Source: Rubrivirga sp. SAORIC476
Lineage (GTDB): Bacteria > Bacteroidota > Rhodothermia > Rhodothermales > Rubricoccaceae
Direction: 5' to 3'
Length of the DNA stretch: 64,000 nucleotides
Assembly (NCBI RefSeq): GCF_002283555.1
Contig: NZ_MVOI01000003.1
Coordinates: 332,536-396,535, forward strand
The notes beneath the pieces were generated by a model. It searched no databases. It was given only the letters and a program-made list of their open reading frames with translations, and was not told the DNA's origin. Position numbers and translations under genes: made by a program. This document shows, in pieces, positions 6,033-45,100 of the stretch (position 1 is its first letter; every line of letters begins with the position of its first letter).

Positions 6033-6473
6033 GTGATCCAAACCCTGCTCACCACCTGTGCACTCGCAAGTGCGCTGGTCCTCTCCCTCAGCGCGCGACA
6101 GGCCACGCACCACCGCACGGCGGAGTCCGAGCGAGGCGAGGTCGAGGTCCGCCTCGGGCAACTCGGCGGCGACTTGCTCGACTTCGGCGCCACGCTCCCC
6201 GTCGCGGCGGATGCGCCGCTGTCCGCCGACGGCGCCACCCTCTGGACCGCGACCTCGCTGGAGGAGTGGCATGGAATCGACGAGCGCGTCGACCTCCCGG
6301 CCGACCGTGCCACCCTGCCTGTCCAGGTGCGCGTGGGCGTGGAGACGGTCCGCAAGCAGGGGGACGCCTTCGTCCCGACGGCGAATGCGAGCCCGTTCCG
6401 CCGGGTTCAGGTGGAGTTGCAGAGCGTGATGGGCGCGACGGTGCGCCTCGAACGGATCTACGCTAGCCGCTGA
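6033..6473 (+). CDS. Pilus-tip-like cassette protein A, copy 1 (unrecognised family)
   Basis: A 146-residue protein with one hydrophobic segment right at the N terminus (VIQTLLTTCALASALVLSLS) followed by a polar, probably extracytoplasmic, domain. I do not recognise a named family. Its N terminus, size class and place as the first of three genes parallel the gene at 44417-45100 (MPQTLLALLALVLASFLTF), which sits inside the pilus locus. The shared pattern is QTLL at residues 3-6, a hydrophobic stretch, and then a charged helix. The GTG at 6033 is chosen because it opens directly on the membrane segment; upstream in-frame sequence is unlike protein. The inferred role is minor-pilin/pseudopilin-like. 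The next gene follows after 23 bp. Confidence 0.6.
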   Translation: MIQTLLTTCALASALVLSLSARQATHHRTAESERGEVEVRLGQLGGDLLDFGATLPVAADAPLSADGATLWTATSLEEWHGIDERVDLPADRATLPVQVRVGVETVRKQGDAFVPTANASPFRRVQVELQSVMGATVRLERIYASR

Positions 6474-6496
6474 GCGCTCCTCTCCCCCTCGCCAGT

Positions 6497-7072
6497 ATGT
6501 GGGCTCTCCTCGACCACCTCAACGCCTCGATTCTGCTGTCGGCCGTGGTGCTGCTGTTCCTCGCCACGCAGATGGGCGGGCAGGAGGCCCAGATCGCGTC
6601 GACCATCCGTGCCTCGGGCACAGGCCTGTACGAGGCGGCGGACTGGATCGAGCGCGACCTCGCCAACCTCGGCGACGGCGTGGCCGAGGCCGACCCGGCG
6701 ATCGTGGACTTCGCCTGGGACGGCGACACCCCCCGGTTCACGTTTCGGACGGGCAACGACACCACCCTGGCCGCGGCCGCCACGCTCGTCCTCTACGACC
6801 TCGCGCCGGGGGCGACCCCTGAGCACCGGGAGCTGCGGCGCTTCGTCGTGGACGGGGCCGATACCACCCTGACGGCACGGACTCCGGCGACGCTGCGCCT
6901 CGCCACGCTGACGCTCCTCGACGCGGCCGGGCAGCCCGTCCCGAGCGACGACCTCGGCCGCGCCCGGTCGGTCGCGGTCCACCTCTCGCTGGACCCTCCC
7001 CTGGGCGCCACCGACGGTGCGGTGGACTGGTCGCGGCGCTTCTTCCCTCTCGGCCTCGCTCAGAACGACTGA
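6497..7072 (+). CDS. Pilus-tip-like cassette protein B, copy 1 (PilW-like position)
   Basis: A 191-residue protein with an N-terminal hydrophobic helix after only seven residues (MWALLDHLNASILLSAVVLL), then an amphipathic helix and a soluble domain with beta-rich, Asp/Thr-rich sequence. It matches the layout of the gene at 43658-44356 (MQFLLDNLIAVIVAGVLILG): LLD at residues 4-6, a Gln-rich charged stretch after the membrane helix, then an acidic segment with a WIERDLANLG-type pattern against WVEEDVMNIG. That local resemblance supports homology of the two cassettes. No named domain was recognised; PilW-type minor pilins are the nearest analogy by size and position. It is the middle gene of a tight three-gene unit. 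Confidence 0.62.
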   Translation: MWALLDHLNASILLSAVVLLFLATQMGGQEAQIASTIRASGTGLYEAADWIERDLANLGDGVAEADPAIVDFAWDGDTPRFTFRTGNDTTLAAAATLVLYDLAPGATPEHRELRRFVVDGADTTLTARTPATLRLATLTLLDAAGQPVPSDDLGRARSVAVHLSLDPPLGATDGAVDWSRRFFPLGLAQND

Positions 7073-7102
7073 CCGCCGCTTCACTCTTCGACCTTCGCTG
7101 CC

Positions 7103-8302
7103 GTGGGCAAATACGCACTCCTCCTCACGACCATCCTGTCGGCGTCCGGCGCCTTCACCCAGCTCAACCTGACCGAGGCCCATCAGGGCGAGACCTCGGA
7201 GCGCAGGGCTCACCAACTGGACCTTCTCGCACGTGAGGCGGCCCTGTCGGGGTATGCGGAGGCCCTCTACCTGATCGAGACGGAGCCGCTGGCCTCCCTC
7301 TCCAGCCGCTCCGGCACGCTGGCCGCGGGGCGCTACCACACGACGTTCGACGTCACGCTCGGCGCCCCGACGGAGGTCTACGTACGGGTTGAAGGCGCCG
7401 CCGAGGCGGGCGGGGACGCCACGCAGTACGTCATCGAGGCGCAGTTCCACGACCTCGACGGCGTCGAGGTGCCGACCCACCCGGACACGCTGCTGGCGCG
7501 CGTCCCGCCGTACCTCCGGTACGCGGCGCTCAGCGACGGCCCCCTCCGTCTGACCCTGATGCCGCGCATCCTCGGCGCCACGCACCAGGTCAACGCCAGC
7601 GTCCACACCAACGACGACCTGGACCTCGCGCTGTCGCTCGGCGCAATCCTTGGCCTCCAGGCCGTCCGCGGGTTCGGAACGTACGCGGGCGACCTATACA
7701 GCGTCCCGCTCCTCAGCGACCCCGAGAACGCGTTCCGCCCTGCGAGCAACCCGGACCTGCTGGACACCCTCCGCCCGTCCGACGTGGTCGAGATGCCGGA
7801 GATCGACGTGGACAGCCTCGCCCGATTCGCCACCGACACCCGGCCCGGAGGCCTCGAACTGCTCGGGACGATGGCGCTCGGCACGCGCGAGTCGCCCGAG
7901 ATCATCCACGTCGAGGGTGATCTCGTGCTGGCCGATGTCCAGTTCGACGGCTACGGCGTGTTTCTCGTAGACGGGGCCCTGATCGTGGACGCGACGCTGC
8001 GGGGCGTCCTCAACGACCTTCTGGGTCGCCCCGAGAGCCGCGTCGCCTTCTACGTGGACGGCCCGATCCTCTTCAACGGCCTCGGCGACGTGCAGGGCCA
8101 GTTCGTCAGCAACGAGTCGATCACGTTCAGCGGGGCGGCGACGCTCTACGGCAACGTCGCCGCGGGCGGGTCGGTGAACTTCCTCGTCGCCCCGACGATC
8201 CGCTTCCTCCCGCCCTCCCCCGCCCTCACGACGCACCTCCCGGACGCGGTGCCGGTCTACGACCTGGAGCGGGTCGCGATGCGGGAGTGGGAGGTCAAGT
8301 GA
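7103..8302 (+). CDS. Pilus-tip-like cassette protein C, copy 1 (PilX-like, beta-solenoid C terminus)
   Basis: A 399-residue protein starting MGKYALLLTTILSASGAF, followed by a helical segment with a charged EAALSGYAEALYLIE stretch near residue 45. The homologous position in the 42183-43607 gene starts MGKALLVLVLGSG and carries REIAASAFNVGMGEL. The C-terminal half (about 255-375) is a run of short Gly/Val-rich strands such as VEGDLVLADVQFDGYGVFLV and FSGAATLYGNVAAGGSVNF, suggesting a right-handed beta-solenoid like those seen in some PilX-type and bactofilin-like proteins. The start is a GTG. It is the last gene of the cassette and converges on the aminotransferase gene 6 bp away. Function is inferred only. 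Confidence 0.62.
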   Translation: MGKYALLLTTILSASGAFTQLNLTEAHQGETSERRAHQLDLLAREAALSGYAEALYLIETEPLASLSSRSGTLAAGRYHTTFDVTLGAPTEVYVRVEGAAEAGGDATQYVIEAQFHDLDGVEVPTHPDTLLARVPPYLRYAALSDGPLRLTLMPRILGATHQVNASVHTNDDLDLALSLGAILGLQAVRGFGTYAGDLYSVPLLSDPENAFRPASNPDLLDTLRPSDVVEMPEIDVDSLARFATDTRPGGLELLGTMALGTRESPEIIHVEGDLVLADVQFDGYGVFLVDGALIVDATLRGVLNDLLGRPESRVAFYVDGPILFNGLGDVQGQFVSNESITFSGAATLYGNVAAGGSVNFLVAPTIRFLPPSPALTTHLPDAVPVYDLERVAMREWEVK

Positions 8303-8308
8303 GGCGGC

Positions 8309-9211
8309 CTACTCCACCACCCGCTCGCCCGTGCGCTGGACCTCGGCCGTGAACAGGTCCGTCAGGCGGCGCGTCATCTCCCCCACCTCGCCGTCGCCGA
8401 TCGTGCGCCCGTCGAGGCGGGTGACGGCAGCCAGCTCGCCCATCGTGCCGGTGCAGAACATCTCGTCGGCGCGGTAGGCCTCGGGGAGCGAGAGGCGAGC
8501 GGTCCGCGCGGGGATGCCGTTCGCCGCGCACAGGTCGAGGACCGTCTGCCGCGTGATCCCCTCGGGGCAGGCGTCGGTGTGGCTGGTGAGCACCTCCCCG
8601 TTGCGGACCAGGAAGACGTGTGTGCCGTTGCACTCGGCGAGGAAGCCGTCGCGGTCGAGGAGCAGAGCGGCGTCGGCCCCGGCGGCGTTCGCCTCGATCT
8701 TGGCGAGGATCGACTGGAGCAGGTTGTTGGAGTGGATCTTCGGGTCGAGGCAGTCGGGCGGAAAGCGGCGAACCGACGAGGTCTGGAGCGTCAGTCCGTC
8801 CCGGCCATAGACGGGTGCTTTCCACTCGGCGAGCACGATGAGCGTCGGGCCCGACTGGTTGAGCCGTGGGTCCATGCCGGACGTGATTTTGGTGCCGCGC
8901 GACAGCGTCAGCCGGATGTGGACGCCGTCGCGCATCCCATTCGCCTCCAGCGTCTCGCGAAGGGCCGCCACGATCTCCTCCCGCGGCGGCACGCCTGCGA
9001 TGGCGATAGCCTTCGCCGAGTCGACCATCCGGTCGAGGTGTTCGGTCAGGCGGAAGATCTTGCCGTCGTACAGGCGGAGGCCTTCCCAGACGCCGTCGCC
9101 GCCCTGGACGAGCGAGTCGAACGGCGACACGCCCGCCTCGTCGCGGTGCACGAGGCGCCCGCCGATGTGGACCATCAGGTCGGCGTTGCGAGGGTCAAAC
9201 TGCTGGAGCAT
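8309..9211 (-). CDS. Class IV aminotransferase (branched-chain/D-amino-acid type)
   Basis: A 300-residue PLP-dependent fold-type IV transaminase. The N-terminal domain includes VHRDEAGVSPFDSLVQGG near residue 25, and the motif DPKIHSNNLL near residue 165 contains the probable Schiff-base lysine. Conserved GFLAECNGTHVFLV and EGITRQTVLDL segments bind the cofactor phosphate. This family includes IlvE (branched-chain amino acids), D-alanine aminotransferase and aminodeoxychorismate lyase; the sequence alone does not decide between them. The ATG at 9211 lies inside the end of the sulfotransferase-like gene (17-bp overlap), so the two are co-translated. Compact length and the DSLVQGGDGVWEG segment support a branched-chain or related substrate. 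Confidence 0.88.
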   Translation of the reverse strand: MLQQFDPRNADLMVHIGGRLVHRDEAGVSPFDSLVQGGDGVWEGLRLYDGKIFRLTEHLDRMVDSAKAIAIAGVPPREEIVAALRETLEANGMRDGVHIRLTLSRGTKITSGMDPRLNQSGPTLIVLAEWKAPVYGRDGLTLQTSSVRRFPPDCLDPKIHSNNLLQSILAKIEANAAGADAALLLDRDGFLAECNGTHVFLVRNGEVLTSHTDACPEGITRQTVLDLCAANGIPARTARLSLPEAYRADEMFCTGTMGELAAVTRLDGRTIGDGEVGEMTRRLTDLFTAEVQRTGERVVE

Positions 9212-9947
9212 CGGGGAGTCGGAAGGAGGAGAGGTGGTCGAAGAGGGGAAGGCATGCGTCGAGCACCGGCCGCAGCCGGTCGGGCACCTCGGGGGCGTCG
9301 TCACGCGGGGCGCCGAAGCCCGTCGACGCCTCGACGGAGGCGTACCAGTGCGGTGCCCACGCGCCGTCGGTGGCGCGCGGACCGGGCGCCCACGTCAGCA
9401 TGGCCGGGTCGAAGGCGAGTCCGAGGCGGGTGCAGAGCGTCCGCAGAACGCCTGCGGGATCCGCCAGCAGGTCGGCCGTATCCAGAACGGGAGGGGCGGT
9501 TCCATCCCGGTCGGCCATGCGGTCGAAGAGTTCGACCTGCTGCGGGAAGCCCGTGTCCGCGAGCGTCGGGTCCGGGGTGACGCGATCGAGTGAGACGAGG
9601 ACGGCCGCCGGGTCGCGGATCAGAAACGCGTGGCGGAACGAGGGATGGTCGAGCCACTCCCGCCCGACGTGCGGCAGCAGGTGGTGGGCCATCTGCTTCT
9701 GGTACCACACGGCCGCTCCCCCCGGTGCCGGACCCGACAGCGTCTCGGCGACCGTCCGCCAGTCGGTCGGCTGCGAGGCGAGGACGGCGTCCCGGCCGGG
9801 GTGCTGGAGGCCGGTCGAGGCGAGGTAGGCCGCGTACAGCGGCTCGTCGACGACGGTGGTGTCGGCGCGGCTGCCCCACGACCGCATCAGGGCCGTCGAG
9901 AGGTTGCGCGGCCCGCTCCACATGGCGACGCGGACGGGCTCAGACAT
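9195..9947 (-). CDS. Sulfotransferase-like P-loop protein
   Basis: A 250-residue protein with an N-terminal WSGPRNLSTALMRSW motif (residues 10-24). This resembles the 5'-phosphosulfate-binding loop of PAPS-dependent sulfotransferases. A mid-region HAFLIRDPAAVLVSLDR segment fits the 3'-phosphate-binding motif. No export signal is seen. The stop overlaps the class IV aminotransferase start. The same two domains occur fused in some plant proteins annotated as branched-chain aminotransferase-like (recalled, not checked), which supports a joint function. The substrate is unknown; an amino-alcohol or amino-acid-derived acceptor would fit the context but is inference. Head of a two-gene operon. Confidence 0.8.
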   Translation of the reverse strand: MSEPVRVAMWSGPRNLSTALMRSWGSRADTTVVDEPLYAAYLASTGLQHPGRDAVLASQPTDWRTVAETLSGPAPGGAAVWYQKQMAHHLLPHVGREWLDHPSFRHAFLIRDPAAVLVSLDRVTPDPTLADTGFPQQVELFDRMADRDGTAPPVLDTADLLADPAGVLRTLCTRLGLAFDPAMLTWAPGPRATDGAWAPHWYASVEASTGFGAPRDDAPEVPDRLRPVLDACLPLFDHLSSFRLPDAPAV

Positions 9948-10035
9948 CGGTGCTGGACTCGACGCGGAACGGAAGGGCGTGGGGCATCGACGGGGGCGGA
10001 GGAGCCGGGAGTCTACGGCGCCCCCTCCCGTCGCG

Positions 10036-11571: not shown

Positions 11572-13355
11572 CAGTTCGAAGTCGGGACGAGCGGGCGGAG
11601 GACGCGGATGCCGATGTGGCCTCTCGGGTCGTTCGGGTCGGCGACCTGCGTGAGTTGGGAGACCAGCGTGCTGGGCGAGGTCGTGTAGGATCCGCCCGCG
11701 GCCTGGACGCTGCTCGGCTGGGCGTGACGCGACGCGAGCCACTCCCACACGTTGCCGACCATGTGGAGCAGGCCGAGGCCGTCGGGTTGGCCGTCGGTCG
11801 ACGCGACGAGGCCCGCACGCCCGGACGCCGGGCGCAGGTTGGGCGCGCTCGCCTCGGCCGACGCGCCGACGCGGTAGGCCCAGGTCCACTCCCCGGCCGT
11901 CGGGAGGCGACCGCCCACCCAGGAGGCGTAGGCGCTCGCGCCCAGCCAGGTAGCGTCCACGACGGGCTGATCGGCGACGCCCTCCTTGGGCTGCCAGCCG
12001 TCGCGGCGGGTCTCTTCCAGGTACGCCGGGCGGCGGATCAGGAACGTCCGCGGCACCTCGTCCATCTGGTTCAGGAAGTCCGCGAACTGCGCGTTGGTGA
12101 CCTCGGTGGTCGAAAGCAGGAAGCCCAGAGCCGAGACGTCGTCGGACACGAGCCGGGAGGTCGTCCGCGTCGCCGAGGTGCCGGGGATGAACGCGAACGC
12201 CAGCGTCACGTCCTCCACGCCCCCCGAGGCCGCGTGAGAGAGGTCGCGGAGCAGGGCGACCGCGGACGGGTCGGCGGGCAGGATCTCCAGGATCTCGCCC
12301 GCGGCGTCCACGAGCGACTCGGTGTCGCCCCGCTCGGCCGCCGAGGCGGCCTGGAGGCGGAGCACGGGCAGGTAGGCGCGCGAGGCCTCGCCCGCACTCG
12401 CCTCCTCGGCGATGGCGAGGTCGAGCGAGGTCAGCAGGGCCTGGGCCGCGGCCGGGTTCTGGCCTTCGGCGCGCAGGCGGACGAGGCAGGCGCGGGCGGG
12501 CTCGTACTCGGCGCGTCGGATCCGGCCGAGCGCCTCCTCCGAGAGCGCCGCCGTGTCGACCTCGCAGGTCGGGGCTTCCGGGTCGATCGATCGCTCGGCC
12601 ACCTCGGGCTCGGGCTCCGGGGGCGCAGGCTCCGGCTCGGGCTCCGGCGGCGGCGGGGCCGGGCGCGGAGGCGGCAGGCGGACGGGCGGGGCCACGACCA
12701 CCGGCTCGGGCTCGGGCATCCTCCAGCCCGTCGTGGGGGCGTCGGGGCGGGACGACACGCGGCCGAGCAGTCCGGCGACGAGGTCGGGGGAGATGGTCGC
12801 CGCGGCCACGAGCGCCGGGGCCACGGACGGCGGCGCGTTCCGCGAGGGCAACTCGCTGGTGAACACCTCGGTCGCGACCGGGACCGAGTGGGACTGCGTC
12901 TTCACCTCCCCGTTCTCGAAGCGGAACGTCAACGCGTAGTCGCCGGGCGGGACCCGAAGGCGCACCTTCGACTGGGCGACGAGCCTCCCGTCGAGTTCCA
13001 CGCGCGTGCCTGCACGGGTGAAGACCACGAGCCAGCTCCCCGGCTGCCGGTCGACCGTCGTCGGCGTCAGCCGCCCTTCCTCGGCGAGCACGCGGACGGC
13101 GAACACCATGCACTGCGCCTCGCAGGAGTTTCCGGGCAGCGCCTCCGCCGTCGCCCCGTCGTCCCCGACGCGAAAGAGCGTCGTGGCGACCTCGACATCG
13201 CCCACGTCGTCGGCGGTGTAGAGCACAGCGCCGGGCGGGAAAGCCTCCGACACTGTCCAGGTCTGGCCGGGGGCGTCCTGCGCCGCACCGCTGACGGCCA
13301 CGAGAGGTAGAGACGCCACCGCGAGGAGGCGGAGGGCGAGGCGAAGTCTGTCCAT
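11571..13355 (-). CDS. Exported FGE/sulfatase-modifying-factor-like protein with PEGA-like domain
   Basis: A 594-residue protein with a signal peptide (ATG at 13355; ALRLLAVASLPLVAVSGAAQ). A PEGA-like beta domain follows at about 120-170 (LDGRLVAQSKVRLRVPPGDY). Next are a Pro/Glu-rich linker at about 220-265, a helical TPR-like stretch, and a C-terminal formylglycine-generating-enzyme-type domain with EVTNAQFADFL, GGRLPTAGEWTWA and HMVGNVWEWL. The catalytic cysteine pair of true FGE is not visible near the C-terminal GIRVLRP motif, so it is probably a binding or scaffolding member, not an FGly generator. It is coupled to the caspase gene downstream and divergent from the subtilase gene. Likely periplasmic. 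Confidence 0.87.
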   Translation of the reverse strand: MDRLRLALRLLAVASLPLVAVSGAAQDAPGQTWTVSEAFPPGAVLYTADDVGDVEVATTLFRVGDDGATAEALPGNSCEAQCMVFAVRVLAEEGRLTPTTVDRQPGSWLVVFTRAGTRVELDGRLVAQSKVRLRVPPGDYALTFRFENGEVKTQSHSVPVATEVFTSELPSRNAPPSVAPALVAAATISPDLVAGLLGRVSSRPDAPTTGWRMPEPEPVVVAPPVRLPPPRPAPPPPEPEPEPAPPEPEPEVAERSIDPEAPTCEVDTAALSEEALGRIRRAEYEPARACLVRLRAEGQNPAAAQALLTSLDLAIAEEASAGEASRAYLPVLRLQAASAAERGDTESLVDAAGEILEILPADPSAVALLRDLSHAASGGVEDVTLAFAFIPGTSATRTTSRLVSDDVSALGFLLSTTEVTNAQFADFLNQMDEVPRTFLIRRPAYLEETRRDGWQPKEGVADQPVVDATWLGASAYASWVGGRLPTAGEWTWAYRVGASAEASAPNLRPASGRAGLVASTDGQPDGLGLLHMVGNVWEWLASRHAQPSSVQAAGGSYTTSPSTLVSQLTQVADPNDPRGHIGIRVLRPLVPTSN

Positions 13356-13539
13356 GAGTGAGCCGTCGTCGAAACCGAAGTCTCCAGCACCCCGCGCCAA
13401 TCCCAATCGGCGCAGGGGTTAGGGAGGTGAGCCGTGCAATCTAGAGCCGCGCGTCGAATCAGCGCCTCGTGCATCCCCTCGTTTTTTCGCTCCCGCCCCT
13501 GTCAGCAGATCTCGATGCGGAAGAACGGGCGCTCGCCCC

Positions 13540-13546
13540 TACCTTG
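13540..13546 (+). promoter_or_regulatory. Predicted -7 promoter element for the subtilase gene
   Basis: TACCTTG fits the Bacteroidota-type -7 consensus TAnnTTTG (7-base form TAnnTTG) and lies 24 bp before the ATG of the subtilase gene, giving a leader of about 17-18 nt. No good -33 TTG partner is visible. Confidence 0.45.
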
Positions 13547-13570
13547 GCGCCCCTGGCTTCCCCGACTCGC

Positions 13571-15586
13571 ATGCTCCGGCCCGACCGCTTCCGCTTCTGC
13601 CTGCTGCTGCTCGCCGTGGCCACCCTGCCCGCCTCGGCGCAGTCCGGCGCGGACCGGGCGGGCCTCGTGGTCCCCGTCGCGGGCGTCGCCCTGGACCCGG
13701 TGGACCTGCTCCGCGCCGAGAACCCCGAGCAGGCGTTCGAGGTGACGCTGGAGTCGGCCGACGGGTCGACGCTCGTGCCCGAGGGGACCGAAATCCGGGT
13801 CCGCGTGACCTCGGAGCGAGCGGGCTTCCTGACGCTCGTCGCCATGGACGAAGAGGGCGCGGTGACGGTCCTCTACCCGAACCGCTTCGCGCCCAGCGCG
13901 CGACTGACCGCCGCCGAGCCCACCTTCTTCCCCGCCGCGTCCGAGTTCCGGATGGTGGCCCGCGCGCCGTTCGGGCGGGAGGTGATGAAGGCGCTCGTCA
14001 CGCCGATGCCGCTGATCGACCCCGCGGCGGCGGCGCGCGTGTTCCTCTCCTCGCGCGTGATCCGCGTCGAGGGCCCGCCACCGACCGACGCCGGGACGGC
14101 GCTGGGTGGCCTCGATCCCGGGGCATGGGGCACGGCGTCGCTGGCCATCGAGACGGTCCAGACGCGCGCGGTCGGTGCCCCTCCGGTGCTGCCCCCGCCG
14201 CCACCGAGCGCGTACCGTCCGCAGGCGCCGCTGTCGGCCTGGGAGGAGCGCTACGAGGACCTCGCGGGCGCCCCGGCAGAGGTTAAGACGTGGAGCCAGT
14301 TCCGGGCCGCGCCCACCCACGACAGCACGCTGGTGGTGGTGCAGCGCCCGTCGACCGGCTGGCGGAGCTTCGGGCGCCCGGCGGGCGGCGGCGGGCTGTT
14401 CAGCCGCGTCCGCTACGTCGCGCCGGCAGCGGACGCGCCGGACGCCTCGGGCACGCGGTCGCTCCACCGCAGCTTCGGCGCCTCCTTCGACGACGTGCTG
14501 GAGGGCCTCAACGCCGACCCGGACGTGCTCGCCGCAGTCCCCAACTACCAGTTCACCTCCCTTGGCTGGCGCTCGGCCCTCCAGCCCGTGCCCCAGCCTG
14601 CGGCGGCCGTGGCCGACTACTGGGAGGCGCAGTGGGCGCTCCACAACCCGTTCTTCCGCTCCGAGGCCGAGCGCCTCGACATCGCGTGGCGCGGCGCGCT
14701 GGAGCGCTACCGCGCCCCCGACCGGCCCGTCGTGGTCGCGGTGCTCGACACCGGCATCCGGTTCGACAACCCCCACCTCGGGCCCATCCTCTGGCGCAAC
14801 CCGCGCGAGATCGCCGAGAACGGCATCGACGACGACGGCAACGGCTTCGTGGACGACGTCCGGGGCTGGGATGCCATCGACGGCGACGGCGACCCCACGG
14901 ACCCGTCGGCGGAGGAGAGCCACGGGACGTTCGTGGCGTCGCAGATCGGCGGCGTCGGCGGCGCGATCCAGGCGATGGCGCCGGACGTGCAGATCCTGCC
15001 GGTTCGCGTGCTGGACGCCGAAGGGCGCGGGTCGCTCCGTCAGCTCATCGAGGGCGTCCGCTACGCAGCGCAGAACGGGGCGCGGGTCATCAACCTGTCG
15101 TTCGGGATGCCACCGATGGACACGCCGAACCCGCGCCTGGAGCAGGTGCTGGAGGCCCTGTTCGCGGAGGCCGAGAGCCGGGGCGCGCTGCTCGTCATCG
15201 CTGCGGGCAACCACGGCGCCGACGCGCGGACCTCGGTGACGTACCCCGCGCATGTCCGCACGACCAACACGATCACGACGGGCGCCCTCACCATGACCGG
15301 CGAGCTGGCCGACTTCTCGAACCGCGGCCCCGACGTCGACGTGGTGGCGCCGGGGCAGGCCATCATCAGCCACCCCGGCCGCGGGTCCGGCGTCGGCGCG
15401 TTCGACGGCACCTCGATGGCGGCGCCCTTCGTCTCTGGCCTCGCCGCCATGCTGATCGCCCAGCACCCGACGTGGACGCCCGCGCAGGTCCGCGCGGCGA
15501 TCCTGGAAACCGTCCGCCAGATCCCCGACCTCGACGTGGCCTCGGGCGGACTCATCGACGCCGCGGCAGCGCTCGGCCGCGAGTAG
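13571..15586 (+). CDS. Exported subtilase (S8 peptidase) with N-terminal DUF4384 domain
   Basis: A 671-residue protein. It has a signal peptide (FCLLLLAVATLPASAQ), a DUF4384-type domain at about 55-150 (VPEGTEIRVRVTSERAGFLT), a Pro-rich linker, an inhibitor-like region, and a subtilisin domain from about 360. The catalytic triad is intact: Asp393 in VLDTGIRF, His451 in SHGTFVAS and Ser615 in GTSMAAPFVSG. The ATG at 13571 is preferred over an in-frame start 102 bp upstream because it begins at the signal peptide. It is divergent from the FGE/caspase pair and convergent with the kinase. DUF4384 is often found with caspase-like and kinase genes, so a shared extracytoplasmic proteolytic pathway is plausible but unproven. 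Confidence 0.92.
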   Translation: MLRPDRFRFCLLLLAVATLPASAQSGADRAGLVVPVAGVALDPVDLLRAENPEQAFEVTLESADGSTLVPEGTEIRVRVTSERAGFLTLVAMDEEGAVTVLYPNRFAPSARLTAAEPTFFPAASEFRMVARAPFGREVMKALVTPMPLIDPAAAARVFLSSRVIRVEGPPPTDAGTALGGLDPGAWGTASLAIETVQTRAVGAPPVLPPPPPSAYRPQAPLSAWEERYEDLAGAPAEVKTWSQFRAAPTHDSTLVVVQRPSTGWRSFGRPAGGGGLFSRVRYVAPAADAPDASGTRSLHRSFGASFDDVLEGLNADPDVLAAVPNYQFTSLGWRSALQPVPQPAAAVADYWEAQWALHNPFFRSEAERLDIAWRGALERYRAPDRPVVVAVLDTGIRFDNPHLGPILWRNPREIAENGIDDDGNGFVDDVRGWDAIDGDGDPTDPSAEESHGTFVASQIGGVGGAIQAMAPDVQILPVRVLDAEGRGSLRQLIEGVRYAAQNGARVINLSFGMPPMDTPNPRLEQVLEALFAEAESRGALLVIAAGNHGADARTSVTYPAHVRTTNTITTGALTMTGELADFSNRGPDVDVVAPGQAIISHPGRGSGVGAFDGTSMAAPFVSGLAAMLIAQHPTWTPAQVRAAILETVRQIPDLDVASGGLIDAAAALGRE

Positions 15587-15630
15587 AGCCCCCGCGACGG
15601 CGTCCCCCCTCTCGTCCGGCGCGCCCCGCC

Positions 15631-17316
15631 TCAGTACGCGTCCAGCGCGAGGTCCTCGATGTCGAATTGGAGTGTTCGCGTGGTCGTCTCGCCCGGCGCC
15701 ACCTCGACCCGAAACTGGCGCGCGACGTAGCCATCGGCCCGCACCTCCAGCATGTGGACGCCCGCTGGCAACCCGGCGAGCCGCACGTCGCCCACGCCGT
15801 CGCTCGCCGCCGAGGCGGCCTGTCCCACGACTGTGACGCGGGCGCCTGCCAGCGGCCCCCCATCCTCGCCGAGCACGGTCGCGCGGACCGCACCGGTCTG
15901 GACGGGTGGAGGCTCGGGACGGCGCTCCGGCGCCGCCACAGGCCCGGACGCCGACGCGGGCGGACCGGTCGGTACAGGCGCTGGAGCCGCTGCCTGCGGA
16001 GGGGGCGCCGTCAGCACGGGGGGCGTCTCGATGGGATCGGCCTCGACGGGGTCGGCCTCGGCCACAAGGAGCGGGTCGTCGTCCAGAACGTCGGCCTGCT
16101 GGGCCTCGGTGGTGCCGTCGGCGGTGGCGTCGGGCCAGACGGCCCAGGCGCCGACGGCGGTGGCGGCGAACACCACGGCGGCGAGCAGGGCGAGCACGAG
16201 CGACCGCCGCGACGGGGAGGGCGACGAGGAGACCGAGGCCGGCGGGGCGGGCGCGCGACCGAGCGCCTCGATCATGTCTGACGCGGTGGCGAACCGCTTG
16301 TCCGGGGCCAGCATGGTCGCGGTGCGGATCCACTCGCGGAGCGAAGCCGGGAGGTCGGCCCGGTCGAGCGCCTCGTGGAGCGGGTCCGGCGCGCCCGAGT
16401 GGAGCGCGTCCGAGCGGCGGCGGGTCGAGAACTCGCGCGCGTCGTCCCGGGTGAGCAGCGTCAGCGCGGTCATGCCGACGCTGTAGAGGTCGCTCTGCGG
16501 GAGCGTGTCCTCGCCGCGGTCCACCTCGGGCGCCGCGTAGCCCGGCGACCCGGCCCCCACCGCCGATGGCACCACCGAGGTCAGCTCCGAGATGCCGCTC
16601 CGCGCGATCCCCAGGTCCACGACATACAGGTTGTCGTGCGGGTCGAGGATCAGGTTGGCGGGCTTGATGTCGCGGTGGAAGATGGGCGTGTCGCTGACCG
16701 GCGCCCCGCCGTCGGCCCGGCGGGTGTGGATGGTGTGCAGGTAGTCGAGCACGCGGAGCGTGTCGCGGAGCCAGGGCAGCACCTCGGCGACCGGGAACGG
16801 CTCCGCGCGGGCGCGGCGGCGCTGCTGGAGCGAGTCACCCGCGATGTACTCCATCACCAGGACCCAACGGCCGCGGTCCTCGAAGAGGGCCTCCACGACG
16901 GGGAGGCGCGGGTGCCGCAGGCGGCTCAGCAGGCGGGCCTCCTTCTGGAGCAGGTCCCGATGGAGACCATCGTGCCCCGTGTCGATGCGGCTGACCTTGA
17001 GCGCCACCTCGCGAGCACCGAAGTCGTCGTCCCCGATGTGGGTCGTGTCCCGCGCCCGAAAGACGCTCCCCGAGGCCCCCTCGCCCAGCGTCTGGACGAC
17101 TTCGAACTTGCCTCCAATCAGCGCCCCCGACCCGAACGACGGCGGCCCCGACGCGGGCCGGTTGACGGTCGCGCCCCAGAGCGCGTCCATCACCTTCGCG
17201 TGGATGGCCGGGTCGCGCTGCTTGAGGATGTCCAACGCGCGCGGGCGCTCGGCCTCGGGCATCTCCTGCAGACGCCGCATGGCCAGTTCGACGGTCAGCG
17301 GGGGCGGGGCGGGCAT
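15631..17316 (-). CDS. Membrane-anchored Ser/Thr protein kinase (PknB-type)
   Basis: A 561-residue Hanks-type kinase. A short N-terminal helical region precedes the kinase domain (about 70-340). That domain has the glycine loop GEGASGSV, ATP-binding Lys107 in EVALKVS, catalytic Asp216 in FHRDIKPAN, and Asp234 in a DLG (not DFG) magnesium motif. A single membrane helix lies at about 371-393, then a Pro/Ala-rich linker, then a C-terminal carboxypeptidase-regulatory-like beta domain (about 470-555; GPLAGARVTVVGQAAS) that should be outside the membrane and could sense a ligand. The ATG at 17316 begins the conserved N-terminal helix. It converges on the subtilase gene 44 bp away, which suggests the island is one functional neighbourhood. 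Confidence 0.93.
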   Translation of the reverse strand: MPAPPPLTVELAMRRLQEMPEAERPRALDILKQRDPAIHAKVMDALWGATVNRPASGPPSFGSGALIGGKFEVVQTLGEGASGSVFRARDTTHIGDDDFGAREVALKVSRIDTGHDGLHRDLLQKEARLLSRLRHPRLPVVEALFEDRGRWVLVMEYIAGDSLQQRRRARAEPFPVAEVLPWLRDTLRVLDYLHTIHTRRADGGAPVSDTPIFHRDIKPANLILDPHDNLYVVDLGIARSGISELTSVVPSAVGAGSPGYAAPEVDRGEDTLPQSDLYSVGMTALTLLTRDDAREFSTRRRSDALHSGAPDPLHEALDRADLPASLREWIRTATMLAPDKRFATASDMIEALGRAPAPPASVSSSPSPSRRSLVLALLAAVVFAATAVGAWAVWPDATADGTTEAQQADVLDDDPLLVAEADPVEADPIETPPVLTAPPPQAAAPAPVPTGPPASASGPVAAPERRPEPPPVQTGAVRATVLGEDGGPLAGARVTVVGQAASAASDGVGDVRLAGLPAGVHMLEVRADGYVARQFRVEVAPGETTTRTLQFDIEDLALDAY

Positions 17317-18045: not shown

Positions 18046-18049
18046 TCCG

Positions 18050-18570: not shown

Positions 18571-18574
18571 CGGG

Positions 18575-19396: not shown

Positions 19397-19398
19397 GG

Positions 19399-35284: not shown

Positions 35285-35354
35285 AGAATCGGGAAATCAG
35301 GGGGGTGGGACATGGGTCTCCATGTCCGAGGGTCGACGGCAGCGACTCGGCGCT

Positions 35355-35600: not shown

Positions 35601-35692
35601 CGGGAGGGGCTTGTCTGGACTACGTCTAAGGTACACCGCCGATGGACGTGCGGGGCGGTTCACAAGATCCCCGCCGAAGCCTCAAACGCAGA

Positions 35693-35724
35693 CCGCCCCG
35701 GAGACCGTGTGGTCCCCGGGGCGG
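35693..35724 (-). terminator. Rho-independent-type terminator after the secretin gene
   Basis: A 9-bp GC stem (CCGCCCCGG/CCGGGGCGG) with a 14-nt loop lies 23 bp beyond the secretin stop. On the minus strand it runs into TCTGCGTTTGAGG. It marks the 3' end of the pilus locus and separates it from the feo operon. Confidence 0.7.
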
Positions 35725-35746
35725 GCGTCCCTGCGTCACGTGTGGT

Positions 35747-37126: not shown

Positions 37127-37167
37127 GTCAGGGGGGGAATGACGCGGGGAGGGACGGCGTGGGAGGC

Positions 37168-38232: not shown

Positions 38233-38288
38233 GTCGTCGGGGCGCGGGGGCCGTCGAGGGGAGCCGTCAGGGAGTGAGAGCGGGAGGC

Positions 38289-40508: not shown

Positions 40509-40542
40509 GGGGGGCGGGGTCGGTCCGGGGCGGGCGGGACGG

Positions 40543-41916
40543 CTAGGCCGTCTGCATCAGCTGCTGGAAGCGGCGCTTGTTGTTCGAGTACTGGAGGCCG
40601 GTCTCGGGCGTGATCTTGCGCTCACGGACGAGGCGAAACAGGTCCTGCTCCAGGGTCACCATGCCCTGGCGCGTGCCTTCCCACATCATCTGGTAGATCT
40701 CGTTGGTGTTGTCGTTCTTGATGGCCGCGCGCACCGAGGCAGTCACCCAGAGGACCTCCTTGGCGAGCACGCGCCCGCCGCCCGCCTTCGGCGGCAGCTT
40801 CTGCGAGACGACGCAGTTGAGCACGTCGGCCAGGCGGGAGCGGACGCGCTCCTGCTCGAAGGGCGGGTACTCGGCCACGATGCGGTCGATGGACTCGACG
40901 GCGCTGGCGGTGTGGAGCGTCGAGAAGACCTTGTGGCCGGTGTCGGCCGCCTCGATGGCCGAGTCGATGGTCTCGGGGTCGCGCATCTCCCCGATCATGA
41001 TGATGTCGGGGTCCTGGCGGAGCGCCTGGCTGACGCCGATCTTGAACGACGGCACGTCCGGGCCCACCTCGCGGTGACGGATGATGCAGCGCTGCGGGTT
41101 GTGGACGTACTCGAGCGGCTTCGCGATGATGACGATGTGGCCGTCGAAGTCGCGGTTGTTGGCGTCGATGATGGCGTCCAGCGTGGTGCTCTTGCCGGAG
41201 CCGGTCACGCCGGTCACCAGCGCGAGCCCGCTCCGCACGTTCGAGAACAGGACGCCCTTCTGGATCACCGGGTGGAAGCCCAGCCCGTCCAGCGGGCGGA
41301 CCTCCTCGTTGATGGCGCGCAAACACACGCCGAGGTGCTGGTTGTCGTAGTAGGCCGTGCAGCGGAATCGCTTGCGGAGGCCGTTGTCGCCGTCGAGCTG
41401 GTACGAGAAGTCGGCCGACTGCACCTCCCAGAGGTCGTCCTGGTTGCGTTCCGAGAGGAGGTTGAGGATCAGGATGTCGACCTCGTCGTTGCTTGCGATG
41501 CCGAGTTCGAAGTGGGGCGTCTTGTCGCCGTCGACGCGGTACCAGACGCGGCCGAGCGTGGCCGGGCCGCCCATGTCGAGGTCACTCGCGCCCATGGTGT
41601 GCATCTTCCCCACGTACTGCTCGACGAAGCTGCGCAGCTGCTCCCGCTGGTCGATGGAGAGCCGGGCGACCTGCTCGGCGTAGAACTTCAGCCGGTCCTC
41701 CCCCACGAGCAGCTTCGGCGCGCTCCGCGCCAGCGGGCGGACGAACGACGGGATCCGGTGGAACCCGTCGCTGTCGACGTCGCCGAAGCCGGGCACCTGG
41801 GCCTGCGGCTCGGGTGCGCCGGGCGCCCCCATCGGAGTGGACCAGGCGGGCAGGGTGCCGGGGGCCGTCGGGCCGCCGAAGCCAGGGGCCTGCGGGAAGG
41901 AAGGGGGCGAAGTCAC
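40543..41916 (-). CDS. pilT: PilT-like pilus ATPase with substituted Asp box
   Basis: A 457-residue hexameric ATPase of the PilT/PilB superfamily. A Pro/Gly-rich N-terminal extension (1-60) precedes an N domain and a RecA core with Walker A GVTGSGKST (Lys242), Walker B DPDIIMIGEMRDPET, His box FSTLHTASA and an AAIKN motif like the AIRNLI element of retraction ATPases. The Asp box, normally TIEDPIEFVH, reads IIAKPLEYVH: the Glu-Asp pair is Ala265-Lys266. That Glu is the proposed general base in PilT. The enzyme may be slow, regulatory, or use another base. Start is a GTG. Known role of relatives: pilus retraction and twitching. Confidence 0.88.
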   Translation of the reverse strand: MTSPPSFPQAPGFGGPTAPGTLPAWSTPMGAPGAPEPQAQVPGFGDVDSDGFHRIPSFVRPLARSAPKLLVGEDRLKFYAEQVARLSIDQREQLRSFVEQYVGKMHTMGASDLDMGGPATLGRVWYRVDGDKTPHFELGIASNDEVDILILNLLSERNQDDLWEVQSADFSYQLDGDNGLRKRFRCTAYYDNQHLGVCLRAINEEVRPLDGLGFHPVIQKGVLFSNVRSGLALVTGVTGSGKSTTLDAIIDANNRDFDGHIVIIAKPLEYVHNPQRCIIRHREVGPDVPSFKIGVSQALRQDPDIIMIGEMRDPETIDSAIEAADTGHKVFSTLHTASAVESIDRIVAEYPPFEQERVRSRLADVLNCVVSQKLPPKAGGGRVLAKEVLWVTASVRAAIKNDNTNEIYQMMWEGTRQGMVTLEQDLFRLVRERKITPETGLQYSNNKRRFQQLMQTA

Positions 41917-42097
41917 AAGTGCGGGAGGGAGCGTCGACAGGATCTCGGCAAGGGCCGGGCCAGACCGGCCAGGGCGGGAATTGGCCCGTGCGGTATCGTC
42001 TTGGCCCCTGTCCGGGCGCGCTTTCGACCCATCGGGGGCACGATTGGTAACCCTGGCGCTCCACGGACGAAGCCCATTCGCGCCTCCCCAAGACGCG

Positions 42098-42139
42098 CCA
42101 AAACAGACGCGGGGGCGGCCGCAGATCGACCGCCCCCGC
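42098..42139 (-). terminator. Terminator after cassette protein C, copy 2
   Basis: A 10-bp stem (GCGGGGGCGG/CCGCCCCCGC) with an 11-nt loop is 43 bp past the stop of the 42183-43607 gene and is followed on the minus strand by TCTGTTTTGG. It separates the upstream pilus genes from the pilT-like operon. Confidence 0.72.
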
Positions 42140-42182
42140 AGGGCTCGCTCGCGCGTCGGAGGGCGCGCATCGGCAGGCCTGG

Positions 42183-43607
42183 CTACCTCACCGTGCAGGA
42201 CAGCACGATGTCATTGTGCTGCCGGAGGTGGGTCCGCGTGGCCGGGTCCGGGAGGCAGAGGAGCTGCTCGTTGGACTCGTTGCCCGGCGGCCGGTGCAGG
42301 ACCGGGTTCTTGTTGTTCTTGGTGTTGTTCTTCGTGCAGCTGCACGCGTAATCGTTGTAAGCGTCGTTGTCGTCGTCGTCCGGGTCGGTGTCCGGCTCCG
42401 GCTCCGGCTCGGGGTCCGGATCGGGGGTGGGGTTGGGATCCGGATCGGGGGTGGTGTCCGGGTCCGGATCGGTGTCCGGGTCCGGCTCCGTCGTCGGGTC
42501 GGGGAGGTCCGGGACCTCGTCCTCGACCTCTCCGCACTCGTCCTGCTGGTCGTGGTAGGAGTCCACGGTCTCCTGGTACTCGGCGTCCGACGGGCGGATG
42601 ACGTGCACCTCGATCACCTGATCGGAGAGGTCGGGGCGGCTCCCGTAGTCACGGAGGAGGCGATAGCCGTCGGCGTTCGCGTCCGGCCAGCCGGTGCCGT
42701 CGTAGCCGTAGATCTTGAGCCCCTGGAGGCTGTTGCGCGGGTCCGTGGATGTCGGGTTGTCCCAGGACGTGTTGTGGATGTCCTCCCAGCCGATCCGCCA
42801 CGTGTCGCGGGCGCCCGGCTTCTGCTCGACGTAGGCCCAGATGTCCTCCTCGACTTCGCCGAGGTTGCCCGCCGAGACGACCAACGCGCTGTGGATGTAG
42901 TCGAAGTCCGAGAGGCGAACCGTGTTGTTCCGCGCGTGCGCACGCGCCTGGCACGTCGGCATCTCCTTCGTAGGCCGTGTAGAGCAGTTCTTGTCGACCC
43001 CGATGAAGAAGTTCATCTGGGTCCCGGGCTCGACCCAGATCATGCGGGCCGGGCGGGCGACGCTCCGGTCCCGGTTGTCGGGCGCGAAGAGCATGATGGG
43101 CTCTGGCTCCTCGCCCTCCTCCATGTCCAGGGTGTAGGCCTGGTAGTACACCGCCGAGCAGTACCCGGCCATCGACTCGATGAACGACACGTCCACGATG
43201 CCGCCCTCGCGGGCCGTCAGGACGTGCACGCGGTACTCGTCGTGCATGGTGTAGCTTGCCTCGCCGAAGGTCCCGGTCGCCACCACGCGGACGCTGTGGC
43301 CGGAGGTCAGCTGGGCCTTGACGGTGTAGGACCCGCCCGTGAAGCGGCCCGTCGAGTAGGTGCCGCTCCGGCCCCGGTTGTTGGGGCCGTTGAGGGCGAT
43401 GGTCCCGGCGTGGACCTCCTCGCCGAAGGCGCGGAGCTCGCCCATGCCGACGTTGAACGCCGAGGCCGCGATCTCACGCGCGATGACTTCCTCCTGGTAG
43501 GCGCGCTGGTCCTTGGAGGTGCGCGCTTCGCTTTCTTGCGTGGAGACGAGTTGCTTGGTCAGGATCAACCCTGAACCGAGCACGAGGACGAGTAAAGCCT
43601 TTCCCAT
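42183..43607 (-). CDS. Pilus-tip-like cassette protein C, copy 2, with Asp-Pro repeat region
   Basis: A 474-residue protein beginning MGKALLVLVLGSGLILTKQL, a hydrophobic start with a Gly at position 2 as in the pilins here. A charged helix follows (REIAASAFNVGMGEL near 45-60), like PilX-type minor pilins, then a strand-rich domain. From about 365 to 420 there is a PDPDTDPDPD-type repeat, a stiff acidic linker that may bind Ca2+. The C-terminal tail has several cysteines (ACSC and others). It is the third gene of the in-locus A-B-C cassette and parallels the gene at 7103-8302. No named family recognised; the inferred role is pilus tip or adhesin. Confidence 0.72.
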   Translation of the reverse strand: MGKALLVLVLGSGLILTKQLVSTQESEARTSKDQRAYQEEVIAREIAASAFNVGMGELRAFGEEVHAGTIALNGPNNRGRSGTYSTGRFTGGSYTVKAQLTSGHSVRVVATGTFGEASYTMHDEYRVHVLTAREGGIVDVSFIESMAGYCSAVYYQAYTLDMEEGEEPEPIMLFAPDNRDRSVARPARMIWVEPGTQMNFFIGVDKNCSTRPTKEMPTCQARAHARNNTVRLSDFDYIHSALVVSAGNLGEVEEDIWAYVEQKPGARDTWRIGWEDIHNTSWDNPTSTDPRNSLQGLKIYGYDGTGWPDANADGYRLLRDYGSRPDLSDQVIEVHVIRPSDAEYQETVDSYHDQQDECGEVEDEVPDLPDPTTEPDPDTDPDPDTTPDPDPNPTPDPDPEPEPEPDTDPDDDDNDAYNDYACSCTKNNTKNNKNPVLHRPPGNESNEQLLCLPDPATRTHLRQHNDIVLSCTVR

Positions 43608-43657
43608 TGGAGTGGTGGTGTGTGCGTGTCAGAAAGAGCCGGGGGCGGCGTGGTGGG

Positions 43658-44356
43658 CTACGACTGGGTGGACGGCGGCGGGACCCAGTAGGGCCGCACC
43701 TTCATGGTCTTGACCCAGTAGAGCTCGCGCATGTAGTTGTCCGGCTTGAGGACGTACTCCGGGACGACCCCGAAGCGGACCCGGATGAAATCGACCTTGT
43801 AGACGTCCACCTCGCCCGTGGGCGTCCGGGGCGTCTCGCCGGACCGGTCGAGCAGGTGGACCTGGAAGAAGGACAGCGTCCCGATGCTGCGCGTGTTGAG
43901 CGTCCAGTCGCTCGTGGAGACGTCGCCCAACGCAGGCGGGTCGCCGTCCGAGTCGAAGTCCACCACCGCCGAGTCGCGCAGGACGCGGTACATCTGGTAG
44001 GTGGTGTCGGCGAACTCCGCCATGCCGGTCTCCACGAGCCGGTAGCGCTTGAAGATGCGGCTGTCGGTGCCGTCGGTCGCGGTGGTGTCGCTGTAGAACA
44101 CCCACTCGGTGGCGTTGCCGTTGATCGCGTCGACGGTCGGCTCCTCGAACCGGTACAGGTTCTCGCCGAAGTTGGCGCCGATGTTCATCACGTCCTCCTC
44201 GACCCACTGGCCGAAGATGAGCGTCTTCGCCTTGACCGAGTGGGACGCGACCTGCTCGATGTTGGCGTGCTGAGAGCGGACCTGCGTGACCTGGAGGCCG
44301 AGGATGAGCACGCCGGCGACGATGACAGCGATGAGGTTGTCGAGGAGGAACTGCAT
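43658..44356 (-). CDS. Pilus-tip-like cassette protein B, copy 2 (PilW-like position)
   Basis: A 232-residue protein with a hydrophobic helix from residue 3 (FLLDNLIAVIVAGVLILGLQ), a Gln/His-rich charged helix, then WVEEDVMNIGANFGENLY near residue 50 and a beta-rich domain ending in a Pro-rich tail. It aligns by eye with the 6497-7072 protein (LLD at 4-6; WxExDxxNxG). The unit order A-B-C, spacing and strand match the orphan cassette. PilW-like minor pilins share this size, but no family assignment is certain. Gap to gene C is 50 bp, to gene A 60 bp. Confidence 0.72.
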   Translation of the reverse strand: MQFLLDNLIAVIVAGVLILGLQVTQVRSQHANIEQVASHSVKAKTLIFGQWVEEDVMNIGANFGENLYRFEEPTVDAINGNATEWVFYSDTTATDGTDSRIFKRYRLVETGMAEFADTTYQMYRVLRDSAVVDFDSDGDPPALGDVSTSDWTLNTRSIGTLSFFQVHLLDRSGETPRTPTGEVDVYKVDFIRVRFGVVPEYVLKPDNYMRELYWVKTMKVRPYWVPPPSTQS

Positions 44357-44416
44357 GCGAAGGAGGAGCCGGGTGTGGTGGAGGTGGGGTCGTGGTGGGC
44401 CAGCGGAGGCTCAGCC

Positions 44417-45100
44417 TCAGGGGGACGGCTCTTCCGAGGTGGTCCCGCCGCCTTCTCCGTCGCCACCGCCATAGGTGGGGTCGTAGTACTCGGAGTTCTC
44501 GTAGTCCATCTCCGCCTTGACGGGGTCGTAGGAGACCACGCGCGTGGCGCGGTAGAGGCCCTCGTCGGTGCCCGCGTAGGGCGAGCGAATGTCGATCAGG
44601 ATGCGCTTGTGGCGGGTCGGGTCGTCGGCCTCGACCATGCTGTTCGGGTTGTCCACGTAGTAGACCTGCGTGCGCACCTCGAAGGGGAGCGAGCGGCCGT
44701 GGGAGAGGTCCACCTGGACCGCGCGCCACTCGATGCTGTCCTCCTCGTCCGCGTCCCAGGAGACGTCGTCGACGTCGTCGCAGTCCGGCGTGAGGGCGGG
44801 GAAGAGCAGGTTGCAGTCGTCGTCGCCCCGGTCGGTCCCGCCCGCGGTGGTCCCGTCGGAGAACTGCGACGGGTCGTCCGGGATGGAGCCGTTTCGATCG
44901 CGGATCGCCGAGGGGGTGGTGTTCTCGTCGAACGAGCGCCCGTCGATGAAGGCCACGATCTCAGACGCCAGCCCGGCCGCCGCCAGCTCGACCTCGTCCG
45001 AGACGAGGTTTTGATGCGAGCGCATCGTCAACCGCTGCTGGTTGAACGTCAGGAACGAGGCGAGGACGAGCGCCAGGAGCGCGAGCAGGGTTTGGGGCAT
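44417..45100 (-). CDS. Pilus-tip-like cassette protein A, copy 2
   Basis: A 227-residue protein with an N-terminal hydrophobic helix (PQTLLALLALVLASFLTF), then a charged Gln-rich helix (NQQRLTMRSHQNLVSDEVEL) and an Asp/Ser-rich soluble part. A Gly/Glu/Ser-rich tail lies at the C terminus. It is similar in start and position to the 6033-6473 protein, but about 80 residues longer. It is the first gene of the cassette, 234 bp after pilB, so a promoter may lie in 45101-45334. A minor-pilin or tip-complex role is inferred. Confidence 0.7.
   Translation of the reverse strand: MPQTLLALLALVLASFLTFNQQRLTMRSHQNLVSDEVELAAAGLASEIVAFIDGRSFDENTTPSAIRDRNGSIPDDPSQFSDGTTAGGTDRGDDDCNLLFPALTPDCDDVDDVSWDADEEDSIEWRAVQVDLSHGRSLPFEVRTQVYYVDNPNSMVEADDPTRHKRILIDIRSPYAGTDEGLYRATRVVSYDPVKAEMDYENSEYYDPTYGGGDGEGGGTTSEEPSP

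Follow-up and report, generated by a model that had tools for sequence, protein, structure and literature searches.

This stretch of DNA, a window of 64,000 nucleotides from Rubrivirga sp. SAORIC476 (contig NZ_MVOI01000003.1, positions 332,536 to 396,535), raises the question of how a type IV pilus might be built from proteins that start directly at their hydrophobic helix, and of what a cassette of three genes, A-B-C, contributes to it. The removal of a leader by a prepilin peptidase counts as a defining step of type IV filaments. Here the major pilins (MGQQQLLL...), A, B and C all begin at the hydrophobic helix, and what appears to be new, judging by the DNA sequence, is a pilus both leaderless and peptidase-free. 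We believe that A, B and C probably form the tip complex of this pilus, of the GspI-GspJ-GspK or PilV-PilW-PilX type. One cassette lies in the pilus (pil) locus of the window and another, the orphan set, lies elsewhere:

6033-6473, forward strand: orphan A, GTG start placed by homology; small leaderless minor pilin (proposed for the GspI/PilV position)
6497-7072, forward strand: orphan B, ATG start; leaderless GspJ/PilW-type minor pilin by prediction, LLD at residues 4-6
7103-8302, forward strand: orphan C, GTG start; putative leaderless tip pilin with predicted helix 2-60, pilin sheet 69-116 and beta-solenoid at about 133-373
45100-44417, reverse strand: pil-locus A, ATG start; leaderless
44356-43658, reverse strand: pil-locus B, ATG start; predicted GspJ/PilW-type minor pilin
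43607-42183, reverse strand: pil-locus C, ATG start, with the MGK start placed by homology; leaderless minor pilin with a DP-rich stretch

Gene starts are from a simple gene caller, which put the start of pil-locus C 13 codons further in than MGK. The N termini of orphan and pil-locus copies match as the preliminary description of this DNA had it: MIQTLL and MPQTLL in A (QTLL), MWALLD..DWIERD and MQFLLD..QWVEED in B (LLD and W-x-E-x-D), MGKYALL and MGKALLV in C (MGK).

Leader peptides and the prepilin peptidase

All six cassette proteins had been described as opening with a hydrophobic helix and no long leader; this holds, and its apparent consequence, which that description did not draw, is that there is no leader at all. 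We measured the codons from the last in-frame stop to the start methionine for 151 starts (28 major pilins, 39 A, 40 B and 44 C) from the window, L006, L007 and L050-L089, choosing the start codon nearest to the start of the hidden Markov model (HMM) match; among the 44 C rows, L066:3291 is a pilin by its N terminus and L074:8186 runs into masked sequence. The stop lies at most five codons before the methionine in 51 of the 151 (10/28 major pilins, 12/39 A, 15/40 B and 14/44 C) and at most ten codons before it in 80 (16 major pilins, 16 A, 24 B and 24 C). Published prepilin leaders have 6-26 residues (PMC4471445, in the portion of its text available). An in-frame stop no more than five codons upstream excludes a leader in these 51 starts, and likewise in 80 of 144 further distinct pilin starts. 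The latter come from L102-L200, in which 149 starts were counted and five repeats of the first or second set removed: 21/34 pilin starts in 19 regions of phylum genomes (one of them, L197, from this genome) and 63/115 in 80 named loci have the stop within five codons, among them the pilin of a Melioribacteraceae bin (L172), with one codon before the methionine. Over all loci the figure is 89 of 171 distinct major-pilin starts. At the decidable starts the mark of a type IV prepilin, a hydrophilic leader of 6-26 residues ending in glycine, is absent. Within the cassettes of the window, an in-frame stop precedes the start by two codons in pil-locus A, by 7 in pil-locus C and by 10 in orphan B.

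The search for a prepilin peptidase points the same way. PF01478 has no match in this genome at E 1, and the peptidase of G045 as query yields only E 0.099, inside a frame of 1868 amino acids. Among 146 genomes of the class with at least 90% completeness, PF01478 matches 16 at 0.01 and 13 over its cut-off, in a survey whose control matched 12 of 14 known genomes; the one-contig genome G032 has no match. A PilT-family model matches 108 of the 146 at E 1e-40, 22 of them over its own cut-off; this threshold also takes in E. coli and B. subtilis, and G069, G122 and G137 have only weaker matches (1e-46 to 1e-57). A peptidase over cut-off occurs in 11 of these 108 (G017, G021, G043, G044, G045, G046, G052, G075, G086, G095 and G098) and is missing from the other 97; two more (G034 and G120) have a sub-threshold match. 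In the phylum, the pilin profile reaches well outside the class, to 87 of 247 genomes, and the peptidase is over cut-off in 33. Both occur together in ten (G017, G021, G043, G044, G045, G046, G052, G156, G160 and G233), leaving 77 of the 87 pilin-bearing genomes with no peptidase over cut-off; these overlaps assume the same genomes in the paired surveys, matched by genome handle.

Where a peptidase is present, it mostly adjoins another system. In three genomes with both systems (G098, G017 and G045; L070-L072) it sits in a separate locus with what are, by eye, canonical prepilins, for example DESG followed by FSLTELLIVLAIIG. Seven 3.3-kb loci around peptidase matches (L039-L045; two repeat genomes) include a canonical prepilin in six, the other being L044 of G095, and in G085, which has no PilT-family match, canonical prepilins again stand beside the peptidase (L076). 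Of the 9 genomes examined in this way, 8 have the peptidase next to canonical prepilins that belong to another system, a count that leaves out four other of the 13 class genomes as well as G156, G160 and G233.

Several points weigh against a wholly leaderless and peptidase-free system. For 100 of the 151 starts, more than five codons lie upstream or no stop is seen, and a leader is not individually excluded there; orphan A has 168 open codons upstream of its GTG. An upstream in-frame ATG occurs in four rows (the pilin ending at 51036, L007 A, L073 A and orphan A), with GTG and TTG uncounted. The genome is a 97.5% complete draft, and PF01478 may miss a diverged peptidase. Glycine, moreover, is residue 2 in 26 of 28 major pilins and 44 of 44 C proteins, possibly the remnant of a two-residue leader. 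The proteins could thus be leader-reduced, with an ultra-short Met-Gly leader cut after the glycine by an unrecognised or diverged prepilin peptidase, and prepilins as a rule have glycine or alanine just ahead of the cleavage site (PMC10191384, in the text available). We consider this unlikely, given that residue 2 of A and B, which are expected in the same filament, is Gln, Pro, His, Ala, Thr and others and is glycine in 0 of 79, and that most of these genomes have no A24 gene over cut-off. We therefore prefer truly leaderless pilins, and infer that the starts with an open upstream frame are leaderless as well.

Homology and predicted folds of A, B and C

The preliminary description took the two sets as copies of one cassette, an idea to be given up should corresponding copies lack significant profile similarity; in HMM searches that similarity is significant for A, B and C alike. 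The models left out the genome's four non-pil copies but kept the pil-locus copy in training (Z = 4000), and are mildly circular in that their members were gathered with seeds including the genome's own copies. Orphan A is matched at E 3.6e-10 over its full length and at 6.4e-5 from residue 31 on, orphan B at 2.3e-24 and 4.4e-14, and orphan C at 1.4e-24 and 3.4e-18. Each model ranks its two expected open reading frames (ORFs) first among the 261 of at least 80 amino acids in the window, with no others below 0.01; the nearest unexpected match is pil-locus A with the B model, at 0.013. A stricter HMM from the soluble parts of 16 pil-locus members still finds orphan B (3.3e-11) and orphan C (4.9e-5), and gives orphan A a non-significant E of 0.86. 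Direct BLASTP of orphan against pil-locus copy is weaker (B 3e-8, C 0.008, A 0.026).

Pfam and NCBIfam offer no credible family for A or B, in agreement with the earlier statement that neither belongs to a recognised named family. Of the C proteins, 0 of 41 match PF14341, the PilX N-terminal family, at 0.01, and 3 of 41 match DUF7305; Pfam Ice_binding matches orphan C at 6.2e-5, under its cut-off. Against sequence profiles of the PDB, B has no match at E up to 10, and the best match of the C profile is ComZ, a weak one at E 0.025. Two candidates from these profiles were set aside: a phage A1 fusion for A (E 0.28) and PilE1 for the major pilin (E 0.34, ranked under an unrelated deacetylase at 0.17).

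The AlphaFold model of pil-locus B (38 alignment rows; mean predicted local distance difference test score, pLDDT, 90.1) has a helix at 2-57 and a beta-rich head with strands at 82-219. In VIA-align, the second aligner used, ten minor pilin rows match it at Z 10.0-12.1, the next row being at 3.5: TTHA1219 (5g24) has Z 12.1, EpsJ (2ret_H) 11.7, XcpW (5bw0_G) 11.6 and GspJ (3ci0_J) 10.0. Its alignment with the filament model 9a1f_S begins at residue 2 of the model and residue 1 of the chain, which would place Asp6 of B at Glu5. Aspartate, not glutamate, is found at this residue (the fifth after the methionine) in 33 of 40 B proteins. With a predicted alpha1 helix of about 50 residues, predicted GspJ-type sheets and an acidic residue 5, B has the features of the GspJ/PilW class.

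For orphan C, the AlphaFold model (35 alignment rows; pLDDT 81.5) joins a pilin part to a solenoid. The solenoid matches ice-binding proteins at VIA Z 17-19 (top 19.3), and the whole chain matches ComZ at Z 16.2 over 298 residues with a root-mean-square deviation (rmsd) of 14.6, a value showing that domain orientation differs. Among the matches listed, ComZ is the only row to span both domains and GspK is absent, which excludes nothing. The pilin part itself reaches Z 5.5-9.1 to pilins (TT_C0855 9.1, GspI types up to 7.4). On the model, orphan C thus looks to have what defines GspK, PilX and ComZ, a pilin fold with a large extra domain.

Three results speak against this assignment. Plain Foldseek with pil-locus B gives a best E of 0.029 and no pilin among the 50 matches listed, the pilin match being that of VIA-align; autotransporter membrane domains reach Z 8.1 against the pilin part of orphan C, and for this reason that part alone is not specific; and A has no database relative by sequence. 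Overall, the reading of A-B-C as a minor-pilin tip complex, already put forward in the preliminary description, is supported by the predicted models, well for B (GspJ-type) and C (ComZ-like) and for A by analogy: A is proposed as a GspI/PilV-type minor pilin, presumably with a pilin fold, on its position and size.

The likeness to ComZ raises the question of what such a tip would bind. According to the available text of the ComZ paper (PMC6561018), a domain of this kind fits only at the tip, and DNA binding is reported. The architecture of orphan C, which it shares with this DNA-binding pilin proposed at the tip (same source, same portion), would suit a DNA receptor and a pilus that serves transformation, not adhesion. 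We see this as a real but minor possibility: the beta-solenoid is common to ice-binding proteins too, and the pil-locus and tandem C proteins (see below) differ from orphan C in their C-terminal parts. We retain the broader reading of C as a tip pilin with a binding module.

The pil locus and the cassettes elsewhere

The remaining genes of the pil locus are as follows:

52556-52131, reverse strand: major-type pilin, MGQQQLLLLVLGIVIVGLAV; 33 upstream codons open, with no ATG in them (alignment A7, profile survey)
51458-51036, reverse strand: second major-type pilin, N terminus as in the first; 113 upstream codons open, start by homology
49234-48824, reverse strand: third pilin, MGQQQLLLLIICVVLVGLAV; in-frame stop 10 codons upstream
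48688-47336, reverse strand: PilC platform protein (T2SSF; PF00482 8e-28)
47311-45335, reverse strand: PilB extension ATPase (T2SSE; PF00437 1.7e-95)
41916-40543, reverse strand: PilT-family retraction ATPase (TIGR01420 3e-98, over its cut-off)
40508-38289, reverse strand: PilM/PilN-like gene, by conserved position only (by eye); no Pfam family at 0.01
38232-37168, reverse strand: PilO-like gene, by conserved position only (by eye); no pilus family in Pfam
37126-35747, reverse strand: secretin (PilQ-like; PF00263 4.4e-29; TIGR02515 5.4e-25, under its cut-off)

The order is thus three pilins, pilC, pilB, A, B, C, the PilT-family ATPase, the PilM/N and PilO positions, and secretin. Extension ATPase, platform protein and secretin are all type IV filament components, and the pilins are recognised by N-terminal helix and position; in pilin alignment A7 (26 rows; window 48824-52556 and L051-L086), M1, G2, Q3, Q4, Q5 and L6 are invariant. 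Several pilin copies per genome are seen, one further copy in this genome lying at G000:C6:173446 (L197). PF05567 (PilY1) matches 0 of 146 class genomes, in a search whose control matched nowhere either.

These genes also bear on whether the locus might instead make a type II secretion pseudopilus, with A-B-C as its GspI-J-K tip, for protein secretion. B is structurally close to GspJ, XcpW and EpsJ, and the order and sizes of A, B and C are I-J-K-like. We find this very unlikely, since the locus has a PilT-family ATPase over the curated cut-off and three major-type pilins, and B is matched no less well by TTHA1219, a type IV pilin, than by the pseudopilins. The PilT argument weighs heavily in the window and less among relatives at large, since only 22 of the 146 class genomes pass that cut-off. 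A type IV pilus remains our preferred assignment.

A survey of copy number and pil linkage had been suggested. In the class, the B profile matches 61 of the 146 genomes, 23 of them twice or more; these are raw HMM matches, of which the one in G107 is broken by stops and spurious and those in family f17 are weak (E 2.3e-5 to 5.3e-3). Of 20 pil regions, 11 have the full A-B-C set between pilB and pilT (L051, L054, L055, L057, L059-L061 and L066-L069), and as a rule the positions of pilMN and pilO are occupied next, with secretin after them; pil genes in the 20 regions were named by eye, with the order in L055 read from HMM matches. Elsewhere L056 has A and B only, L050 has A-B-C-pilT without pilB upstream, and L053 and L058 end at contig edges. 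No cassette lies between pilB and pilT in L052, which has one elsewhere (L077), nor in four f17 regions (L062-L065), where a soluble protein of 167-168 amino acids (..FLKEPPLLLRNFHYEDVLEF) takes the A-B-C place. Proteins resembling this f17 gene are seen by eye in L061 and L066-L068. Two A-B-C sets stand side by side before pilT in the pil locus of L059 and L060 (f15), and L086 and L088 are second leaderless pil loci (G132, G120), one of which contains two consecutive C genes.

The preliminary description had called the complex lineage-specific, and here it has to be corrected: besides those 11 of 20 class regions, trios with similar N termini are seen by eye in other classes of the phylum (L184-L186, L191). 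When named genomes were scanned for the MGQQQLLL pilin, 538 stretches matched, of which 416 encode relatives. Among the best 80 are Rhodothermales, Rubricoccaceae, Salinivenus, Roseithermus, Fodinibius and Gracilimonas, and also KSB1, Calditrichaeota, Ignavibacterium, Melioribacteraceae and Kryptonia; a few are in bins labelled Patescibacteria, Deltaproteobacteria and Pseudomonadota, which are possibly misbinned.

Within this genome, a B search followed by reading of the regions gives five cassettes, only one of them inside the pil locus, so that the preliminary count of two was right about both sets and their order, and too low. Besides the two sets of the window, these are:

L006:8870-12407 and 12706-16644: tandem cassette pair, outside the pil locus
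L007:7795-5551: fifth cassette, outside the pil locus

The orphan set is flanked by peptidase-like and aminotransferase-like genes (named from reading of translations), and no pil genes are seen by eye in the first 14 kb of the window. In a tree of 40 B proteins, the tandem copies fall inside a 100/100 clade of 13 sets from families f1 and f11, none from a visible pil locus and several on short contigs. The B proteins of the orphan set and of L007 sit on long branches, and the group that they form with B proteins from second pil loci of two other families (L086, L088) has modest support (88/88). Relatives of orphan C are found in G332 (four matches), in G333 (one) and in the genome's own L007 copy, but, at a threshold of 0.001, in none of the six further family genomes searched. 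This B tree and the distribution of orphan C suggest that the sets diverged as paralogues long ago and were not copied recently. Of two further genus members in the B survey, G104 has orthologues of the tandem pair and G124 has a single B match.

Are these four non-pil sets alternative tips, or are they relics or parts of a separate short filament? No pil motor gene is seen near them by eye, the PilT-family model has only two matches in the genome, and the grouping of orphan and L007 B with B of second pil loci would fit an independent filament. We think it doubtful nonetheless, as none of the twelve ORFs in the four sets is interrupted, the tandem pair is conserved in G104, and the wider orphan clade, supported at 100/100, takes in both f1 and f11. 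Alternative tips thus stay our preferred explanation, and the earlier suggestion that the second set gives a different tip is plausible: C is the most variable member of the cassette, and the orphan sets are in old, separate clades.

The tails of some C proteins share a further feature. Pil-locus C carries a C-terminal HRPPGN..HL..C motif, and a Cys tail resembling CHxPPGN..HLxHGDxxGxC is seen at 42183-42300 of the window and in the L006 tandem C proteins. Loosely defined as CH..P....HL.HGD...C, the motif occurs in 7 of 44 C proteins and resembles one of Bacteroidota surface proteins.

A probable leaderless pilus and its relation to known systems

Our computations give homology of the sets, predicted folds for pil-locus B and orphan C, exclusion of many leaders, and no PF01478 peptidase. 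The following mechanism would fit. Translation of each subunit would begin at a methionine right where the mature helix starts, making a prepilin peptidase unnecessary, and the helix would serve as membrane anchor first and filament core later. C would take the very tip and carry the binding module (for the orphan set, a beta-solenoid of the ice-binding type, like that of Thermus ComZ), with B, its aspartate in place of the Glu5 of other pilins, and A joining below it in one complex. The major pilin MGQQQLLL... would then polymerise under PilB and PilC and be withdrawn by PilT, and the four non-pil cassettes would be alternative tips sharing this one motor.

More widely, it is probable that much of the Bacteroidota and of phyla near it, namely Rhodothermia (including Balneolaceae), Ignavibacteria, Kryptonia, KSB1 and Calditrichota, make retractile pili of leaderless pilins with no peptidase, a second route to the type IV filament in which processing and N-methylation are dispensable, and that these pili are diversified by swapping three-pilin tip cassettes. 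If true, such pili would test whether leader cleavage and methylation matter for filament assembly. There is also a consequence for annotation: pilin finders that depend on a class III signal peptide would be expected to overlook these pilins. The genome paper of Melioribacter roseus records pilB, C, T and Q without pilA or pilD as an incomplete system (PMC3534657, in its available text), and missed leaderless pilins may well be the reason. In the open-access literature, among the matches listed (titles and abstract starts; subscription papers and preprints lay outside the scope), we found no report of leaderless pilins or peptidase-free pili in these bacteria. A review of phyla with type IV prepilins names, in the portion available, only Nanoarchaeota as without detectable peptidase (PMC4471445), and in the corresponding part of Denise et al. 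(PMC6668835) the MSH loci without their own peptidase are in genomes with one elsewhere.

Of the known systems, the GspI-GspJ-GspK tip (XcpVWX, EpsIJ) is alike in its three minor pilins, small, middle and large, and in the GspJ fold predicted for B. The system described here differs in having no leader, no peptidase found and a PilT-family ATPase in the locus; GspK, as far as the available text goes, has a helical insert where orphan C has a predicted beta-solenoid. The PilA1-3/ComZ locus of Thermus thermophilus also comes close, TTHA1219 being the top row for B and ComZ spanning both domains of orphan C. In the available part of their paper, the Thermus authors relate TTHA1218 to GspI and TTHA1219 to GspJ, and ComZ is not a predicted PilD substrate. 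Unlike here, the genus has a peptidase (Thermus composti matches in our control), and only ComZ, not the whole set, is suspected there of escaping cleavage. The minor pilin/PilY1 clusters 1-3 of Myxococcus xanthus likewise combine several minor pilin sets with one motor and one major pilin (PMC7541494, in part); those clusters include PilY1 and FimU. Finally, the Bacteroidetes type II secretion system ('T2SS') of Cytophaga hutchinsonii is a type IV filament system of the same phylum that, by contrast, has an A24 peptidase gene (PMC5553014, in the text available); in some of the genomes surveyed, a locus with A24 and canonical prepilins is found alongside the leaderless system (L070, L071 and L072).

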